A stretch of DNA of 37,910 nucleotides from a virus. The notes beneath the pieces are model-generated. The model was not told where the DNA came from and ran no database searches. It was given only the letters and a program-made list of their open reading frames with translations. Both the position numbers and the translations under genes were made by a program. This document shows, one piece after another, positions 14,855 to 28,517 of this stretch. The stretch covers positions 1 through 37,910 of IMG/VR virus record IMGVR_UViG_3300009149_000113. One strand, written 5' to 3'. Positions within the stretch are counted from its first letter, which is position 1, and every line of letters begins with the position of its first letter.

Positions 14855-16783
14855 TTAGGAGTTATAAGTTCCTAACGTATTATTTATTTGAGAATTAATC
14901 GTAGCCATTGCGGTTGGATTATTAATTAGTAAGTTAGCTAATGCATCTTTATCTAATACTGAGTTGGTTGGTATCCCTTCAAGTGTGAGGTTAACTTGAC
15001 CGCTCACATTTACATTAGAATTAGACGCCATCATAGTTGTTGGTTCACCTATACTACCAGTACTGTAATTAAGACTAGATATAGATGGATTATCTCTACC
15101 CCCGGTTTCGTGATTAATTGATGGATTACCTCTACCCCCAGTTTCGTGGTCGATTATCTGAGTTTCACCATTCAAACTAGGGTTTTTTCTACTTCCAGTT
15201 TCTTTAAATATTCCCGAAATACTCTCAGGTAAGTTTTCGATAGCTAAAATAACTTCCCCCCAACCTTGCTTCATTAATAATAAAAGTGCGGCACCATCAG
15301 CTTTATCAATTAGTTGTTGAATAATCTCATTAGTGGCTTTAGCGGATTCATTAATACCATTAACAACCGCCTCAGTAATCGCGGCAGCTGTTTCCCTATC
15401 CATACTTAATTGTGTTTGTATTTGACCAATCCCACTAATAATATTGTCAGGAACCTTTATCTCATCTTCTCGTTTTAAAAACTCTTCAGTTAGCATTTTT
15501 TGAGCCTCTGTAGCTTTCTCAGCAAAAATATCAAAACCACCACCTTTTACTAAGTTTAACGTTGTTAAATTAATTAAAGTCTTCTGAGCTGCCTCAATTT
15601 GGTTAAGATAACCCATAGATTCCTTAGCGACATCAATTTCTGACATGTTATTAACATCTAACATATTTTCTAATTGAGTGTAATCACTAGCAATTAATTG
15701 ATTAAACCCTTCGCCAATTTTTTTAACCGTACCGTCTGGCATAGTTATCTCTAAATTACCATTAGCCCCAATTTTACCCATATTAGCGATTAGTTCTTTT
15801 TGCTCTTCAGGTACAGTATTAAAATTATCTAATATTTTTAACTTTTCAGTCTTTTGAGCCGCTTTCATACCCATCTCCGCAAACTCTTGATATGACATTC
15901 CAGCTAATTTTGCGGCTTCTCTAAGACGGTACATCTCAGTAACAGGAATATCAAACTCCCCTGACTCCTTATTAAATGAAACTGCCCCCGCTGCCATATC
16001 AACAAGACTATCTTGTAGTCCCGCCATATCTGTTTGAGCCATATTTAATAATGAGAATGGGTCTCCTAATTTACTAATTGACCCCCCTAACATTTGGAAT
16101 CCAGCTGCGGTTTTAATTGCCTTTTCAGGTGACATTAGTTCATCAGCAAAACTAACCGTCTTACCCATATCAATTCTTAAGGCTTGTGCTTGGGCAACCA
16201 TTTTAGAAAGACCTACGACACCGTCTTTAAAGTTATATGTGACCATTAACTTTAAATTCTTGTTAACCTCACCCATAAATGTGGAAACGTTTAAACCATA
16301 AGCTCTCGCTTGGTCGGTCATTTCTCCCATCATCGCAAGTGTTTGGTCTGTGGTATAACCTAAGGTATCGAATGAGGTAGCCATAGTAGCTAACTCGGTT
16401 GCCGTCATATTAGCGGTCATACCTAACGCTTGAAATCCTGTTATTTGTGAATCCGTGAGAAACGTATTTCTCATCATTGAATTATTTATCGCGGCAAATA
16501 ATTCAATATTTTTTTCAGCACTAATACCAATTTGCATAGTACTTTTAGCTGACTCAGCCATAACTTTTTGAACCTCATTACTTACCGCTCTAGTTTGTCC
16601 TAAACTTTCTCTAACCGTATTGGCAGATTTAGTTTGAATCGCAGCAGCCCTTTCAATTAACGAACCAACATCGATGATACTGTCTTTTAATTTTCTCGCA
16701 AATGCTGTAAGCGAGATGTCCGCTAACTTAATACTCGATTCTATCGATTTAACCTCTCCAGCTATTCCATCACCTTCAAACAT
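14855..16783 (-). CDS. Tail tape measure protein
   Basis: The 642-aa protein sets tail length and sits inside the tube until injection. It is Ala/Met/Thr-rich and strongly helical at the N-terminus, with an alternating pattern (FQALGMTANMTATELATMAT, then FDTLGYTTDQTLAMMGEM) typical of tape-measure cores. The C-terminal part (about 540-600) contains 12-residue repeats of the form H-E-T-G-G-R-x-N-P-S-I. The length is close to T4 gp29 (590 aa), so the predicted tail is about T4-sized. It follows the gp26-like/chaperone pair, the usual gene order for tape measures, and starts 13 nt after a TATTTATA motif. No lysozyme or other enzyme domain is visible. Confidence 0.75.
   Translation of the reverse strand: MFEGDGIAGEVKSIESSIKLADISLTAFARKLKDSIIDVGSLIERAAAIQTKSANTVRESLGQTRAVSNEVQKVMAESAKSTMQIGISAEKNIELFAAINNSMMRNTFLTDSQITGFQALGMTANMTATELATMATSFDTLGYTTDQTLAMMGEMTDQARAYGLNVSTFMGEVNKNLKLMVTYNFKDGVVGLSKMVAQAQALRIDMGKTVSFADELMSPEKAIKTAAGFQMLGGSISKLGDPFSLLNMAQTDMAGLQDSLVDMAAGAVSFNKESGEFDIPVTEMYRLREAAKLAGMSYQEFAEMGMKAAQKTEKLKILDNFNTVPEEQKELIANMGKIGANGNLEITMPDGTVKKIGEGFNQLIASDYTQLENMLDVNNMSEIDVAKESMGYLNQIEAAQKTLINLTTLNLVKGGGFDIFAEKATEAQKMLTEEFLKREDEIKVPDNIISGIGQIQTQLSMDRETAAAITEAVVNGINESAKATNEIIQQLIDKADGAALLLLMKQGWGEVILAIENLPESISGIFKETGSRKNPSLNGETQIIDHETGGRGNPSINHETGGRDNPSISSLNYSTGSIGEPTTMMASNSNVNVSGQVNLTLEGIPTNSVLDKDALANLLINNPTAMATINSQINNTLGTYNS
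15084..15155 (-). repeat. 36-bp tandem repeat in the tape measure gene
   Basis: Two 36-bp units, starting at 15084 and 15120, match at most positions; a more diverged third unit follows to about 15207. Each unit encodes 12 residues built around ETGGR-NPSI. The repeats lie near the C-terminus of the tape measure. Confidence 0.75.
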
Positions 16784-16808: not shown

Positions 16809-17015
16809 TTAACGAGATTTTTGCCTTTGTTTCTCTATTTGTTCATTTTTTTCTTGGAATTCGGTTGACAACTTATTAATAAAGAATTTTCTTTCGAATG
16901 TCGGCATAATAAGTAGGTCCGAGTAAGACATATTTACATGTTTACTTAGATAGTAGAACTCATCGAGCAGAACTTTTCTATAACTAGAAGAAAGGACGAA
17001 AAAACTCCGCCCCAA
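16809..17015 (-). CDS. Tail-chaperone extension frame, probably expressed by +1 frameshift from the gp26-like gene
   Basis: This 68-codon frame has no ATG at its 5' end. The only near-start is a TTG at 17015, inside the upstream gene, with no ribosome binding signal. It overlaps the end of the gp26-like gene by 32 nt in the +1 frame. The encoded segment (LLDEFYYLSKHVNMSYSDLL, then MPTFERKFFINKL) resembles the C-terminal parts of tape-measure chaperones, with helix, S-Y-x-D and E-R-x-x-x-I. It lies between the gp26-like gene and the tape measure, as lambda gpGT and its analogues do. If frameshifted after the TTT TTT C stretch, the fusion would be about 307 aa. Internal initiation at TTG cannot be excluded. 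Confidence 0.55.
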   Translation of the reverse strand: MGRSFFVLSSSYRKVLLDEFYYLSKHVNMSYSDLLIMPTFERKFFINKLSTEFQEKNEQIEKQRQKSR

Positions 17016-17733
17016 AAGTGATACGCATATTCACTTTTTCTCCTGACGGGGCTGTAGTAGTTCTATTAAGGTCTAATTTAAGTTCACAATCTGACATTGT
17101 GTTCCTAATAAACTTTGAATCCATAATAGGTAGCGTACTTATAAAGGTTGATATTTTTTCTCTGTTTTCATCACCATCGATAGACATAATGTGTTTTTCT
17201 AATCTTTTAGTAACAATTGGTACAGTTACTCCATTAGGGTATGAGTCGGGTAATGCAGATAATTCATTAGTGTCCTGAACATTTAAAAGTCGACATTTTA
17301 CATTAACACCCGATTTAGGTAGGTTAAATTCAAATAACCCTTTTTCATTTGGTGTTATTTTAGCTTTTATAATATTTAATTCATCTAAAGCGATTGTCGT
17401 CTCAAAATCTTTCCCTGTCTTAGGGTCTTTTAATTTAAAATTATAATCTGAGCCAAAAGCGGTATTTCTTAAAAAGATTAAGATAGCTTCCGCATCTCCG
17501 TCAAGTAATTCATTTACGTTAAAATCCGGCTCATAAATTTTATTCTTCAGTAATGTCATTACTAAATTGTTATTCCCTGCGTTTGATAATAATATATTTT
17601 CATCTTGAGCAGTTAAATAACCCACCTTAAGAGATTTTTTCTTACTTGTGTAGAATAAACCTTGTGATGGTAATGGTACCACATCATGTGGTAAGTCCAT
17701 ATTCATTTCTCCGTATTGTTTTCCTTGGTCCAT
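16984..17733 (-). CDS. gp26-like baseplate hub / tape-measure chaperone protein
   Basis: The 249-aa protein has the look of the T4 baseplate protein family that includes gp26. It starts with an LPSQGLFY motif (residues 21-28), followed by a segment with LTAQDENILLSN, then VNELLDGDAEAILIFLRNTA. The middle part (LKDPKTGKDFETTIALDEL) and C-terminal strands also fit. In other contractile and siphovirus tails the proteins at this place bind the tape measure and are frameshifted. Here it lies directly upstream of the tape measure and its last codons overlap the +1-frame extension. T4 gp26 is 208 aa. The ATG at 17733 is 19 nt after a terminator hairpin, so read-through from the tube gene or a weak own promoter must supply its mRNA. 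Confidence 0.65.
   Translation of the reverse strand: MDQGKQYGEMNMDLPHDVVPLPSQGLFYTSKKKSLKVGYLTAQDENILLSNAGNNNLVMTLLKNKIYEPDFNVNELLDGDAEAILIFLRNTAFGSDYNFKLKDPKTGKDFETTIALDELNIIKAKITPNEKGLFEFNLPKSGVNVKCRLLNVQDTNELSALPDSYPNGVTVPIVTKRLEKHIMSIDGDENREKISTFISTLPIMDSKFIRNTMSDCELKLDLNRTTTAPSGEKVNMRITFGAEFFRPFF
16998..17004 (-). other. Candidate +1 ribosomal frameshift site
   Basis: On the minus strand the frame-0 codons are GAG TTT TTT CGT. A tRNA-Phe on the second TTT can move one base forward to TTC, its better-matching codon, and the next codon becomes GTC in the 68-codon frame. The frame-0 stop TAG follows four codons after CGT. No other start signal for the downstream frame is visible. Confidence 0.5.
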
Positions 17734-17751
17734 AATTGTTTATTAAAATAA

Positions 17752-17785
17752 AAAACCATAGAAGTTCAATGACCTCTATGGTTTT
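17752..17785 (-). terminator. Intrinsic terminator after the tail tube gene
   Basis: An 11-bp perfect stem (AAAACCATAGA and its complement) with a 12-nt loop is followed on the minus strand by TTTTTTATTTTAAT. It lies between the tube stop at 17827 and the gp26-like start at 17733. A second 7-bp stem (TATTGAT/ATCAATA) stands a little upstream, near 17793-17814. The pair would give strong tube expression and reduced flow into the chaperone genes. Confidence 0.75.
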
Positions 17786-17826
17786 AAATATACTATTGAT
17801 TGTTTTATTATCAATACTTGTTTCTA

Positions 17827-18315
17827 TTAGTACACCAAAATACATCTATCAGGACGTAATGTTGCTGTAATTGTCGCTAACGCATCGTCACTATAACCTA
17901 AACTGTCGAAATTAACGTCAGTTAAGAATGTCCCTTGTAATATCCATTTCTCAACTGCTACCCCTGTTGGGTCTAACATCTCTAAGTCTAAATCTTTCTT
18001 ATAACCTGCTGCGTATCCCATACGGCCTATAACGGACTCTGAGTGTAGTCTAACCCACTCCATTAAAGCTTGTGAGGCTGATGGACCGATTGGGTCACGG
18101 AAAGTAACGTTTATTGTGTTCCAGGTAAATCTACCTGCCACGTAAGTGGATGTGTTTAGAAAAGGAATTTCTGTGGACCCGATTTGGATGTTAGGTCTTG
18201 ATGTAGACTCAACATACCAAGAATTAATCCCCAATGAAGATGGAAAAGATAAGATAAATCTATTCTTTCTTTTTGGTTCATAAGGAACGGGCATTTTCAT
18301 TAATAAGTCTGCCAT
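17827..18315 (-). CDS. 19: Tail tube protein (gp19-like)
   Basis: The 162-aa protein stacks in hexamers to form the inner tube of the contractile tail. The length is nearly the same as T4 gp19 (163 aa). The sequence shows KRKNRFILSFP near the N-terminus, then SSTRPN-type turns (ESTSRPNIQIG), a TWNTINVTFRDPIG strand and LMEWVRLHSE, all typical of myovirus tubes. The C-terminal strands ITATLRPDRC close the barrel. It is downstream of the sheath, HAD and 50-aa genes and followed by a strong terminator, which fits a protein needed in many copies. The ATG is 37 nt after a TATTTATA motif. Confidence 0.85.
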   Translation of the reverse strand: MADLLMKMPVPYEPKRKNRFILSFPSSLGINSWYVESTSRPNIQIGSTEIPFLNTSTYVAGRFTWNTINVTFRDPIGPSASQALMEWVRLHSESVIGRMGYAAGYKKDLDLEMLDPTGVAVEKWILQGTFLTDVNFDSLGYSDDALATITATLRPDRCILVY

Positions 18316-19514: not shown

Positions 19515-22500
19515 TTAAATATCTTCAAAAGATGCTCCTGTAGGAGTAATCAAAAATTCAATATCAATAAATTCAAGTGCTCTTGTTGGTTTCAAGTAAA
19601 TTTTACCTGTTAACGTGTTAGAGTCTAAATCTTCAGGTGTACCTGAAACTGTAACTCTAAAGTCAATTAAACCTCTGTCTCTCCTAATACTATCTAAGAT
19701 AGGGTTAACTGAGTCTAAGAATTCTTGTCTTACTTGTTCGTCATTTTGTTCGAACAATAATCTTACCGCCACAGCCGAAATTAATTTACGTGCTTGTAGT
19801 AATAATCTTCTAACGTTTATTCTATCAAGTGCAGATTCTTTAACTTGTAAAGTTTTGTTACCCCATATTACAGTACCAACATCGGAGAAGGTTGCAATTG
19901 GGTTTAATCTACCTTGGTATAGTACATCTCTATCTTCTTGTGTTAACTTCTTACGTGCTTTAACTGAGTTAACTAAACCTCTTGTGTAACCCGCAGATGC
20001 GAACCATGGGAAAGCTATATTATCAGTTAATGCTAAGTTCCTAGCAACCTCACCTGTTGGTGGAAGATATATTTGTGTATTATTAACCGTGTCTCTCGTA
20101 AGTATCCATGGATAATAAGTTGCTGTGTAGTTAGAGTCTATTCCTGTGTCTACTAAATTATCTACCGCTTCTTCAGGGTAAATAAAGTCAGTATCAAAAC
20201 TACCTAATGAAGGTGTAAACATTTGATAGTCAGGTGTAGTACAGAGATAAATTGAATCTGCTCTATCCTGTTCAATCATATCAATTGCTGACTCAACTAA
20301 GTTTGAGTTATTTACATAATCAATACCTGGTGTAGTAAACACATTAATGTTAACTGATTCAGGATTATTAAATGTATATTGACCCCATAAGTAAGCGTAA
20401 TAATCTGTGTTAGCCCAAGTTAATTGGTCTGGTCCTACAATTTGTTTAAACGCTCCCCATCCTGTTGCGGTTGGATAACTTATCGATGGTGCCGCCCCTT
20501 TTCTAAATCCTGCTGCTCCTAATTGATATCTGTCACCGTTAGTTCTATATTGTCTATAAATATCCCATCCATCGAAACCTCCTGATGGAACTACTGTGAA
20601 CTTACGTGCATTTAATCTAAAATATGGACTACCTTCAGTTGGTTCTGAATCGAAACTCGCGTCCCCAACTTCAAAAGCCGTTTCACCTGACGTAATATAA
20701 TTAGAAGAAATCATAATAACCGTTGCTCCTGAATCCATATGGTAATCTTTAGTAAGGTAACCCCATGGTTGTGAATCAGTTGCGGTCCCTAAATTTGTAG
20801 GGTTTTGTTTTCCTTTATACTGTAAGAAATCTGAATCAATCCCTACGGTGTTTGAAACACCTAAGAAAGTTCTTCTTACTCTATCACCTGAACTTCTCGT
20901 TTCATTGTCAGTACCTGTCGCCGCACCAAATGGTGGGTTCCAAATAACTTCACCTGGTGTGTCGTATTTTGTTTTATATTCTAAGAATGGTGAATTAACT
21001 CCTGAGTATTGTCTAGTTTGGTATCCACGGAAACCACAAGGTAGTGAGTCATAAGGTGCGTCCTCATTCATCTCTAACATTATAAATCTTGACCTTAACT
21101 CAAACTCCCCATTAGATGTACCAATTCTTTTAGCTACAAAACTATTTTGATTCATATCCATAGTACAGTTAGTAAATTTCTCTAAAACTACTGGGTTAGC
21201 ATCGGTATCGAAGAAATCACGTACAACTACATCGAATGTCCCATTATTAAATGAAATGTTCATAATAGAGACTTTTATCTCTCTATTTGCGGTGTTACCA
21301 TCAGATATAGTTAATACCTTAAACATATTGTAAACTTGATTACCTCTTAATTCAGAAACGAAATAAGGTGTTTCAGGTGTTTGGTATCTTTCTAAGTACC
21401 ATCCGATACTTGTATTGGTTGCTAAATCTTGTCTAGCACTTGGTAAATCAACTAGGTCACAACTTAATCCACGGACTTTACCTAAACGATACCCCGTATT
21501 TAATAAGTTATAATATTCTTCCTCAACAAATAATGGTACCTCTGATTTCGGTTTCGCAAAATTTGATTTACCAAATACCTTTGAAAGGTAGTTTGAACTA
21601 GATAAGTTAAATGATGTTTGGAATATAAAGTTATCTCCATCGGTAGTTGTTGCAGAGACTGCAAAAGTCGAAAAAGGATTAGTGGATATACCAGAATACG
21701 CTCCTGTACAATCTAAAAGAACGTCAGTTACCCCTGATACCTCATAAACTGGTCCGTCATCATTTGTATAGTTATCTATACCTCTTGAACGTAAAGTTGC
21801 AACTACCACATCGTGGTAACCGCTATATGGTGTACCCGAATAGCTTGTTACATAAACTTTAGCCGTACCTTGGAAGTTAAGACCTACATTCGTCATTGAT
21901 GTTACACCCATACCAAAACCTGTACCGTTATACACGTTAGCAGTTTCAGTAAATAATGCGTAATACCATGGGTCATTAACCGATGCGGTTAAATCACAAG
22001 ATTCAAAAAGAATATCTTCTACATTAAATACATTAGTATTAACTGACCCAAGAGCCCCTGTTTGATTAACCGTATCGCCTGTAGTACTATTAAATGTGGA
22101 GGCACTTACCGCTCCCCAAAAATAAGATGTTTCTCCTGAAGTCGTGTTATTTACAATCTCCGAATATAAATATCTATCCATATCACGAATAATAGAGGAC
22201 TCTCCACCCGTATATGTTGTATATGGATTAGTTATCACATCCGTAATACTGATAGGTAATGCTGAGTAATTTACTCCAACACTTGTGGATGTTCCTGAAA
22301 CTCCTGTAAATGAAATAGAGAAAGGTCCTAAAACGCCTGTTGCCGTTGTACCTGAGCTATCTAAGTTACCGATAGTTGTTATTGACCATGAAGGCCCCGC
22401 GTCGTACCCTGATAAACCAAGTACTCTAGTAACAAACAATTGATTTGATTGTTGTAGATATGATTTCGCTATGTAAGCTGCCTCGTACTTAGGTATCTGA

Positions 22501-22709
22501 GTATTTACGAATTTAGTTGGATTTGTACCACCAAAATAGGATTGGAACTCATCGTAATTAGTTATGAAAATCGGCTCGAACGCTGGTCCCGAAATTGTTT
22601 CACCTACTAACCCAAGAGTTATGACTCCCACACTTTGTGCTACAAAACTTAAATCTCTTTCTGATGTATAAACACCCGGAGATACAAATACTTTGTTAGA
22701 TGTTGCCAT
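19515..22709 (-). CDS. 18: Contractile tail sheath protein (gp18-like, large)
   Basis: The 1064-aa protein forms the contractile outer sheath. The N-terminus FVSPGVYTSERDLSF, followed by VGVITLGLVGETISG and ITNYDEFQSYFGG, is the classic sheath start. The last 100 residues (VNVRRLLLQARKLI, then FLDSVNPILDSIRRDRGL and the final strands KPTRALEFIDIEF) form the conserved C-terminal domain that links neighbouring subunits. T4 gp18 is 659 aa, so about 400 extra residues are inserted in the middle, rich in Ser, Thr, Gly and Tyr, probably as surface domains. It is read from an ATG with a 32-nt A-rich spacer to a TATTTATC motif and is followed by a hairpin. The neighbours are the ribbon-helix-helix gene (divergent) and the 50-aa/HAD genes. 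Confidence 0.9.
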   Translation of the reverse strand: MATSNKVFVSPGVYTSERDLSFVAQSVGVITLGLVGETISGPAFEPIFITNYDEFQSYFGGTNPTKFVNTQIPKYEAAYIAKSYLQQSNQLFVTRVLGLSGYDAGPSWSITTIGNLDSSGTTATGVLGPFSISFTGVSGTSTSVGVNYSALPISITDVITNPYTTYTGGESSIIRDMDRYLYSEIVNNTTSGETSYFWGAVSASTFNSTTGDTVNQTGALGSVNTNVFNVEDILFESCDLTASVNDPWYYALFTETANVYNGTGFGMGVTSMTNVGLNFQGTAKVYVTSYSGTPYSGYHDVVVATLRSRGIDNYTNDDGPVYEVSGVTDVLLDCTGAYSGISTNPFSTFAVSATTTDGDNFIFQTSFNLSSSNYLSKVFGKSNFAKPKSEVPLFVEEEYYNLLNTGYRLGKVRGLSCDLVDLPSARQDLATNTSIGWYLERYQTPETPYFVSELRGNQVYNMFKVLTISDGNTANREIKVSIMNISFNNGTFDVVVRDFFDTDANPVVLEKFTNCTMDMNQNSFVAKRIGTSNGEFELRSRFIMLEMNEDAPYDSLPCGFRGYQTRQYSGVNSPFLEYKTKYDTPGEVIWNPPFGAATGTDNETRSSGDRVRRTFLGVSNTVGIDSDFLQYKGKQNPTNLGTATDSQPWGYLTKDYHMDSGATVIMISSNYITSGETAFEVGDASFDSEPTEGSPYFRLNARKFTVVPSGGFDGWDIYRQYRTNGDRYQLGAAGFRKGAAPSISYPTATGWGAFKQIVGPDQLTWANTDYYAYLWGQYTFNNPESVNINVFTTPGIDYVNNSNLVESAIDMIEQDRADSIYLCTTPDYQMFTPSLGSFDTDFIYPEEAVDNLVDTGIDSNYTATYYPWILTRDTVNNTQIYLPPTGEVARNLALTDNIAFPWFASAGYTRGLVNSVKARKKLTQEDRDVLYQGRLNPIATFSDVGTVIWGNKTLQVKESALDRINVRRLLLQARKLISAVAVRLLFEQNDEQVRQEFLDSVNPILDSIRRDRGLIDFRVTVSGTPEDLDSNTLTGKIYLKPTRALEFIDIEFLITPTGASFEDI

Positions 22710-26954: not shown

Positions 26955-28517
26955 ATGAAGTTCAAAAGATTAATAAATAAAATCTCATTTATAGAACATA
27001 AATTAAATAGCCGAGAAGAATTAACAGAAGTTAATCACAAAAACTCGCAATTCCCTAAAGAAATTTTAACAGAAATGAAAAAAATAGGTATTGAAAAATT
27101 GCCGTACTCTTATTCTGCCTTAGAGAGATTTATAGACTCAGAAACTATGGATACTCACTATAACAAACACTATAAAGGATACGTAAAAAAATTAAATGAC
27201 GCTCTATCAAGTAAAATTGATGGAGATATTGGATTAGAACAAATAATAAAAGGCATATCGAGATATAATAAAACAATCAGAGACAATGGTGGAGGAGTAT
27301 TTAACCACTCACTTTTTTGGAAAATCATGTCACCTGAAAAACAAAAAGCTCATGGAGAAATCTACAATAAGATAATCAAAGATTTTGATAATTTTCCAAA
27401 ATTTAAAAAAATATTTAGTAATGAGGCACTTAAAAACTTCGGGTCTGGATGGACATGGTTGGTTCTGACTAAATCGGGTAGATTAAAAGTTATGTCAACA
27501 CCGAACCAAGATAACCCATTAATGGATGTTGTAAAAAATGGTGGTTATCCATTACTTTGTTTAGATACATGGGAACACGCATATTACTTAAAATATCGTA
27601 ATAAAAGAGATGATTATATAAGGAATTTTTGGTCGGTAATTAATTGGGATTACGTTAACGAATTATACGTATCTCAAACATCAAAAAAATTAAATGAGAC
27701 AAAAATCGTAAAAAGTATTATCTCTGAAGGGGCAAGTGCCGGATGTAATAGAAATCAAGTTCAAACATATAGACGACTATTTAATACTAATCCTGAAATT
27801 AAAAAACGTTTTATGTATACCATTATGGATATATTAAAAGAGGTCTTTTCAGAATATTGGTATGAAAAAAATAAGTACTCTGAAGGTCAAATGTCAGGTA
27901 TTTACGATTACGAACAAAAAGGTCGTTCAGTTATTAATAAATTAAACACTAATTATACTGCGTTTTGTACATTAGTTAGTGATATTAATAAGTACTTAAG
28001 AAAATATGGTATCGATGCCATTAATTTTAACGATAAAAACCGTAACCAACAATTATCGGAAGTAGATAGATTAAATAAATATTTAGTTGAATTAAGATAT
28101 AGCATTTTTAATTCAGACTCCCCAACATTTAAAACTATCATGTCTGGTTTAGATAAAACTAATAAGTTTGGTGATAAACGTGAAGTAGATGCGGTTGTAA
28201 GTTTAAGAGAAATTTTTAAAACCGAGAAAGTTAAAAAAGTTGGGGAATTAGGTGATGTTGATGATATGATTAAAGGTATTGATGCAATTGTCCAATTACC
28301 TGAAGGGTCTAAAACCATACAAATAAAACCATTTAACGGTGTTAATAAACGAAACGGTAAAGTGGTTGTTTATGGTACTGGTAACGTTAAGCCCTATAAA
28401 ACAGATTACTTAGTTTTCCATAGTGATAAGTTAGGAACTGTTGTTTTTGAGAATAATTCTACCAAAATAATTAACGGTAGATACGTTTTTAACGAATCAT
28501 CTGAATATATTAATTAA
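26955..28517 (+). CDS. Mn-type superoxide dismutase fused to a PD-(D/E)XK-like C-terminal domain
   Basis: The 520-aa protein combines two unrelated parts. Residues about 48-240 are an Fe/Mn superoxide dismutase: LPYSYSALERFIDSETMDTH, FNHSLFW, FGSGWTWLVL, STPNQDNPLM and LDTWEHAYYLKYRNKRDDYI. The four metal ligands are present (His68, His118, Asp204, His208). Gly114 and Gln185 are at the positions typical of manganese enzymes. It would convert superoxide to peroxide and oxygen in the cytoplasm; no signal peptide is seen. Residues about 410-500 resemble a PD-(D/E)XK nuclease core: Glu410, G-I-D at 441-443, I-Q-I-K at 455-458 and a following TDYLVF strand. Residues 250-400 are helical and unassigned. 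It lies between the SNF2 and neck genes. The SOD is near certain, the nuclease fold moderate. Confidence 0.85.
   Translation: MKFKRLINKISFIEHKLNSREELTEVNHKNSQFPKEILTEMKKIGIEKLPYSYSALERFIDSETMDTHYNKHYKGYVKKLNDALSSKIDGDIGLEQIIKGISRYNKTIRDNGGGVFNHSLFWKIMSPEKQKAHGEIYNKIIKDFDNFPKFKKIFSNEALKNFGSGWTWLVLTKSGRLKVMSTPNQDNPLMDVVKNGGYPLLCLDTWEHAYYLKYRNKRDDYIRNFWSVINWDYVNELYVSQTSKKLNETKIVKSIISEGASAGCNRNQVQTYRRLFNTNPEIKKRFMYTIMDILKEVFSEYWYEKNKYSEGQMSGIYDYEQKGRSVINKLNTNYTAFCTLVSDINKYLRKYGIDAINFNDKNRNQQLSEVDRLNKYLVELRYSIFNSDSPTFKTIMSGLDKTNKFGDKREVDAVVSLREIFKTEKVKKVGELGDVDDMIKGIDAIVQLPEGSKTIQIKPFNGVNKRNGKVVVYGTGNVKPYKTDYLVFHSDKLGTVVFENNSTKIINGRYVFNESSEYIN

Follow-up and report, generated by a model that had tools for sequence, protein, structure and literature searches.

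How would an open frame with no usual start codon be expressed? The question is raised by a cluster of tail genes in the window, by which we mean the entire 37,910-nucleotide stretch analyzed (IMG/VR virus record IMGVR_UViG_3300009149_000113), where the minus strand carries, in order, a tail tube gene, a gp26-like ORF, the frame in question, and a 642-aa ORF (Table 1). Programmed +1 ribosomal frameshifting, which would generate short (249 aa) and long (307 aa) tail chaperones, is the explanation that best fits the sequences, and we consider it highly probable. Comparison of relatives shows a conserved site, a coding shifted frame, a hairpin with covarying stems, and the lack of any conserved start codon; that slippage occurs, that it moves the ribosome forward, and that the hairpin influences it are what we infer.

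A single message would give rise to two tail-assembly chaperones. Most ribosomes would terminate at the frame-0 stop, releasing the 249-aa, gp26-like TAC-N; on a fraction of ribosomes at GAG TTT TTT CGT, the P-site tRNA-Phe would step forward by one base, from TTT to TTC, and these +1-shifted ribosomes would complete the 307-aa TAC-NC with its gp51-like C-terminal domain. Just upstream is a stem-loop, its 3′ foot separated from TTTTTTC by 4 nt, that probably folds again in the wake of the ribosome and would aid the forward slip.

Table 1. Positions in the window of the genes, the putative shift site and the predicted stem-loop elements.
Feature	Position	Strand	Basis or remark
Tail tube protein, upstream neighbor of the gp26-like ORF	17827..18315	-	phrog_4542 tail tube, E 2.7e-28
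gp26-like ORF, frame 0; predicted short tail-assembly chaperone (TAC-N), 249 aa	16984..17733	-	PF12322, phrog_150
Stem P1, 5′ arm GCCCCG	17047..17052	-	100% of cells paired, 23 distinct sequences
Unpaired TCAGGAGAA between P1 and P2	17038..17046	-	contains invariant GGAGA, complementary to the anti-SD core
Stem P2, 5′ arm AAAGTGA	17031..17037	-	84.5% of cells paired
Stem P2, 3′ arm TCACTTT	17015..17021	-	covariation and synonymous randomization
Stem P1, 3′ arm TGGGGC, ending 4 nt upstream of TTTTTTC	17009..17014	-	covariation alignment
Putative shift site TTT TTT C	16998..17004	-	frame 0 GAG TTT TTT CGT; P-site TTT would re-pair with TTC in +1
+1-frame extension (predicted TAC-C domain) ...FVLSSSYRKVLLDEFYYLSKHVNMSYSDLLIMPTFERKFF...	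16809..16998	-	translation with one +1 step
642-aa ORF, downstream neighbor; tape-measure candidate by position only	14855..16783	-	same place annotated tape measure elsewhere

The gp26-like gene, its extension and its neighbors

The coordinates and phase of the two frames in the initial annotation were correct: the second frame lies in the +1 phase relative to the gp26-like ORF. It is open for 73 codons (16809-17030, minus strand), or 68 when counted from a TTG at 17015, the point from which its overlap with the gp26-like ORF measures 32 nt. The fused product of 307 aa would run from 17733 to 16812, with a stop at 16809-16811.

The short form exceeds the curated cut-off of PF12322 (E 3.6e-7; 30.5 bits against 24.5) and matches the phrog_150 baseplate hub profile (E 2.9e-11). 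Its AlphaFold2 model (pLDDT 85.6) resembles predicted gp26/baseplate-hub proteins from T4-like phages, SP-15 among them; a Foldseek search of the model against the PDB returned nothing below E 0.6, and a sequence search of solved structures gave no useful match. Pfam-type and phrog profile searches yielded no tape-measure family match for the 642-aa ORF, and the gene in its place is annotated as tape measure in Flavobacterium phage immuto and Listeria phage LIS04. Homology and gene position together suggest a chaperone role. The tail tube and gp26 proteins have Flavobacterium phage immuto and Rhodothermus phage RM378 among their closest cultured relatives, together with phages that infect other hosts.

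Other features of the window deserve brief mention. Between the tail tube gene and gp26, positions 17741-17800 (minus strand) contain a hairpin followed by a T run and are terminator-like; the SP-15 annotation has a rho-independent terminator at the corresponding position. The tail sheath gene (19515-22709, minus strand; 1064 aa) is matched by sheath families in its C-terminal part only (~784-1061). On the plus strand, a 520-aa ORF (26955-28517) contains an Fe/Mn superoxide dismutase domain at residues 47-236 (PF02777, E 4e-38; PF00081, E 2.7e-21), followed by ~280 aa of unfamiliar sequence.

The peptide encoded downstream of the overlap had been read as the C terminus of a tape-measure chaperone, and profile similarity to the C terminus of T4 gp51 and to cyanophage tails supports this view. 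In hhalign comparisons, the +1 tails gave a moderate match to the C-terminal 46 residues (205-250) of T4-like gp51 (probability 80%, E 1.3e-5), the extension profile matched cyanophage tails (probability 95%, E 6e-8), and the cyanophage tails matched both gp51 (probability 96%) and phrog_634, 'baseplate hub assembly catalyst'. Membership in DUF6760 (PF20546) was considered and rejected, with scores of 14.9-15.5 bits under a curated cut-off of 27. Since T4 gp26 and gp51 both belong to PF12322 and the extension matches the gp51 C terminus, the pair looks like the product of a gene duplication, with gp26 corresponding to the short form and gp51 to the long one.

Both T4 proteins are given as hub assembly chaperones in PMC3004832. 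Where they deal with T4-like chaperone genes, PMC10885494 and PMC12846349 credit Vladimirov, Gautam and Davidson 2022 with identifying them and, according to PMC10885494, that work reported that some T4-like phages have separate short and long copies in place of frameshifting. The initial annotation had judged a T4-like example at gp26 to be worth recording; the example itself is supported, and it is less new than was thought because the T4 gp26/gp51 pair apparently is already in print as tail-assembly chaperones, as PMC12846349 and PMC10885494 indicate.

The putative slip site, the shifted frame and competing explanations

In frame 0 the overlap reads GAG TTT TTT CGT CCT TTC TTC TAG, and among the 27 window genes (12,064 codons) TTTTTTC occurs in frame nowhere else. 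A scan of viral contigs produced 80 relatives, and in all 76 complete ones, which were checked first and share 55-99% identity, TTTTTTC in frame and an open +1 frame are both kept; the heptamer is likewise present throughout the 23-sequence hairpin alignment. On contigs of sufficient length, the open +1 frame extends 142-178 nt beyond the frame-0 stop. The Phe pair is TTT TTT in 29 of 29 representatives, although TTC makes up 27% of the gene's Phe codons. Synonymous identity among 29 non-redundant genes is highest at codons 222-238 and 241-249 of the gp26-like gene, invariant codons being 228-231 (GCC CCG TCA GGA), 241 (GGG), 244-245 (TTT TTT), and 248-249 (TTC TTC), and codon identity exceeds expectation at GGG, TTT TTT, CCT, and TTC TTC. 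Invariance from the shift site onward can be due in part to two overlapping frames; upstream of the site it is not explained in this way, because that region lies outside the stretch that would be translated in +1.

The idea that gp26 avoids in-frame TTT-C fitted 25 of 26 window-family genes, but most of the SP-15/GXN1-group genes tested dropped out because of other in-frame TTTC words or stops. Across the 27 window genes, C follows TTT less often than it follows TTC (31/435 vs 24/131; Fisher p 3.5e-4), which could mean that slippery TTT C is avoided or could be an effect of ordinary codon context.

Selection acts on the shifted frame as on a coding sequence. Downstream of the point where frame 0 ends, the +1 frame has a median pairwise dN/dS of 0.14 vs 1.1-1.2 for the other two, with a control value of 0.23 for the C-terminal part of gp26. 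Start codons conserved in this frame were not found. Initiation at the TTG at 17015 (position -11) was rejected, as this codon is not conserved, being absent from 7 of 25 sequences. The earlier claim that the second frame lacks an ATG is true of the window, where none occurs before 73 nt past the slip site, and does not extend to the many relatives that carry one at +34; other relatives lack this ATG, and in one of the relatives, L102, the first ATG, GTG or TTG comes no earlier than +91, within the conserved core.

These observations bear directly on an alternative that we regard as improbable, in which the second frame would be a small gene of its own whose translation begins at the TTG at 17015, at an ATG farther downstream, or through reinitiation by ribosomes that have terminated at the end of gp26. 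The ATG at +34 could start a shorter free peptide in the relatives that have it, the homologous peptide is annotated as a gene with its own ATG in KVP40 and cyanophage Bellamy, and there is a TAATG junction in jumbo phage L085. However, the TTG is unconserved, L102 and 30 loci of other groups have no usable start, and the +34 ATG comes only after a conserved FxLSS..Y segment. A separate gene would also leave the retention of TTT TTT C at synonymous sites unexplained. The +1 slip of tRNA-Phe from TTT to TTC that the initial annotation had proposed gains comparative support from site invariance, coding selection, and the absence of a conserved start.

Two other routes into the +1 frame seem very unlikely to us. 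RNA polymerase slippage on the T run could change the frame of some transcripts, and the window site does contain six consecutive T; such a stretch, ended by an invariant C, is, however, short for polymerase slippage, and T runs of three or fewer occupy the equivalent place in 17 immuto-like and 13 SP-15/GXN1-like loci. The other route is a -2 slip instead of a +1 slip. TTTTTT permits both, with products that differ by one residue, but a -2 slip would mispair in relatives with TTT CTT TGG or TTC TTT CGT, where a +1 slip pairs (CTT to TTT, TTT to TTC). Sequencing or assembly error or a decayed gene, which the homopolymer at the site might bring to mind, can be set aside almost entirely, as the same frame relation recurs in well over 100 loci from many metagenomes and in the isolates SP-15, LIS04, GXN1, and immuto, and the shifted frame is under purifying selection.

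A stem-loop upstream of the putative slip site

In addition to the features first described, a conserved 5′ stem-loop precedes the shift site, with the layout GCCCCG-TCAGGAGAA-AAAGTGA-loop-TCACTTT-TGGGGC. Our case for this structure is based on covariation and on randomization of the inner codons in 23 distinct sequences. In the outer stem, P1, the outer pair varies among GC, GU, and AU and the inner pair among GU, GC, and AU, and four of the seven pairs in P2 show changes on both sides. The structure as a whole contains 16 cells with changes on both sides vs 6.3 +/- 2.1 in shuffles, none of 500 shuffles reaching 16, and pairing drops to 37-59% when the register is slid. In some relatives the inner stem is one base out of register. 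In most sequences folding was weaker after synonymous randomization of the inner codons (mean z -2.15; 19 of 23 sequences at the 10% level), and folding z-scores of single sequences over the whole 51 nt are modest. Because related sequences are not independent, we take these statistics as supportive and not as exact. An Rfam search gave nothing useful, and an upstream structure sought in the immuto, SP-15/GXN1, and cyanophage groups was not found there, the hairpin being seen only in the window's own family.

An SD placed 3 nt upstream of the site, as in prfB, was considered as a stimulator and rejected, since the NGAG at that place varies in the hairpin alignment (GGAG, AGAG, TGAA, GGAC, CGAC). 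As a separate observation, two partners are conceivable for the GGAGA left unpaired between P1 and P2: the anti-SD and the TTCTTC 3′ of the shift site.

When the second TTT occupies the P site, the hairpin foot falls 7 nt upstream, within the mRNA exit region, which is the seat of the SD:anti-SD duplex in prfB-type frameshifting. Only one of the 27 window genes is preceded by an SD-like stretch, the others having A/T-rich leaders as in Bacteroidota, and the anti-SD is described as hidden in Bacteroidia ribosomes in the pertinent parts of PMC8710568 and PMC9976891. By analogy, and given the exit-region position, the SD-poor window genes, and the hidden Bacteroidia anti-SD, a stem-loop in place of an SD:anti-SD duplex is a reasonable guess, with a Bacteroidota-type host as a candidate. 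We offer only tentatively the fuller proposal that the upstream mRNA stem-loop, and not an SD:anti-SD duplex, stimulates the +1 shift by folding behind the ribosome and pulling the message, a device that would suit hosts that hide their anti-SD, such as Bacteroidia.

Other phage groups and known systems

A +1 frame that is open across the gp26 stop is also present in immuto, Microcystis phage Mel-JY01, Bacillus phage SP-15, LIS04, Streptococcus phage GXN1, and jumbo phage LR756508. The records of SP-15 and immuto list the second half as a hypothetical gene of 36-39 aa, and those of LIS04 and GXN1 leave it unannotated. Among viral contigs, the +1 frame is open in 79 of 82 immuto-like loci, with sites that are mostly TTT TTT TGG or TTT CTT TGG, and in 33 of 39 SP-15/GXN1-like loci, mostly with TT(T/C) TTT C; in 30 loci from these two groups the shifted frame has no start codon of any kind up to +45 past the stop. 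In cyanophage-like relatives it is the -1 frame that is open (80 of 81); all 80 carry T TTT TTC, and a purine-rich, GAGGG-like stretch lies ~10 nt upstream of it. Most have an ATG soon after the stop, which is missing there in L344 and L357. In L286 no Met separates the slip site from the ENMIPWER motif, which makes a -1 frameshift look likely in that contig. The cyanophage-like contigs L284, L286, L287, and L288 have T TTT TTC and a longer frame-0 end. In jumbo phage L085 the extension is a separate ORF in -1 phase whose start is at the TAATG junction. A scan of bacterial genomes returned only an Erysipelotrichaceae MAG contig.

Programmed frameshifting is the probable route to short and long chaperones, encoded by two genes in T4 itself, in many T4-like phages that fall outside the T4 group, and an evolutionary series of +1 frameshift, -1 frameshift, separate ORF, and duplicated gene therefore becomes traceable. 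The predicted product is a pair of tail-assembly proteins for a contractile tail, and the putative frameshift is usually overlooked in the annotation of related T4-like phages; it would account for wrongly annotated or missing small genes in the isolates SP-15, LIS04, GXN1, and immuto. Frameshifted tail chaperones are already known, and what is new is a +1 version that has a hairpin upstream and occurs in a phage with SD-less genes, an RNA-hairpin-based +1 signal that is testable.

As in lambda gpG/gpGT and other TAC-N/TAC-NC systems, a short and a long product would come from one gene, which directly follows the tail tube gene and precedes the ORF that is a tape-measure candidate by position. 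In contrast to the -1 shift in lambda, the window phage would shift +1 on TTT TTT C with an upstream stem-loop, and its protein belongs to PF12322, unlike lambda-type TACs. With T4 gp26 and gp51 it shares PF12322, and the C-terminal extension of gp51 matches the frameshift extension; T4 has separate genes for short gp26 and long gp51, whereas in the window phage one gene appears to yield both.

Further parallels are the relatives of Pseudomonas phage Adele and the T4-like TAC-N poly-T sites which, in the relevant portion of PMC12846349, have a conserved frame change at a T-rich site at the TAC-N end. There, too, the second half is usually annotated as a separate hypothetical gene; unlike in the window, the direction is -1 and the motif GTTTTT, and that portion of the paper describes no upstream hairpin. 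In prfB (RF2), as proposed for the window, a pyrimidine codon in the P site slips +1 and an upstream mRNA element is thought to pull the message (PMC8710568). In prfB, however, the upstream element is an SD-like sequence 3 nt away and the A site holds a stop codon, whereas the window has CGN as its A-site codon and a stem-loop as the upstream element.
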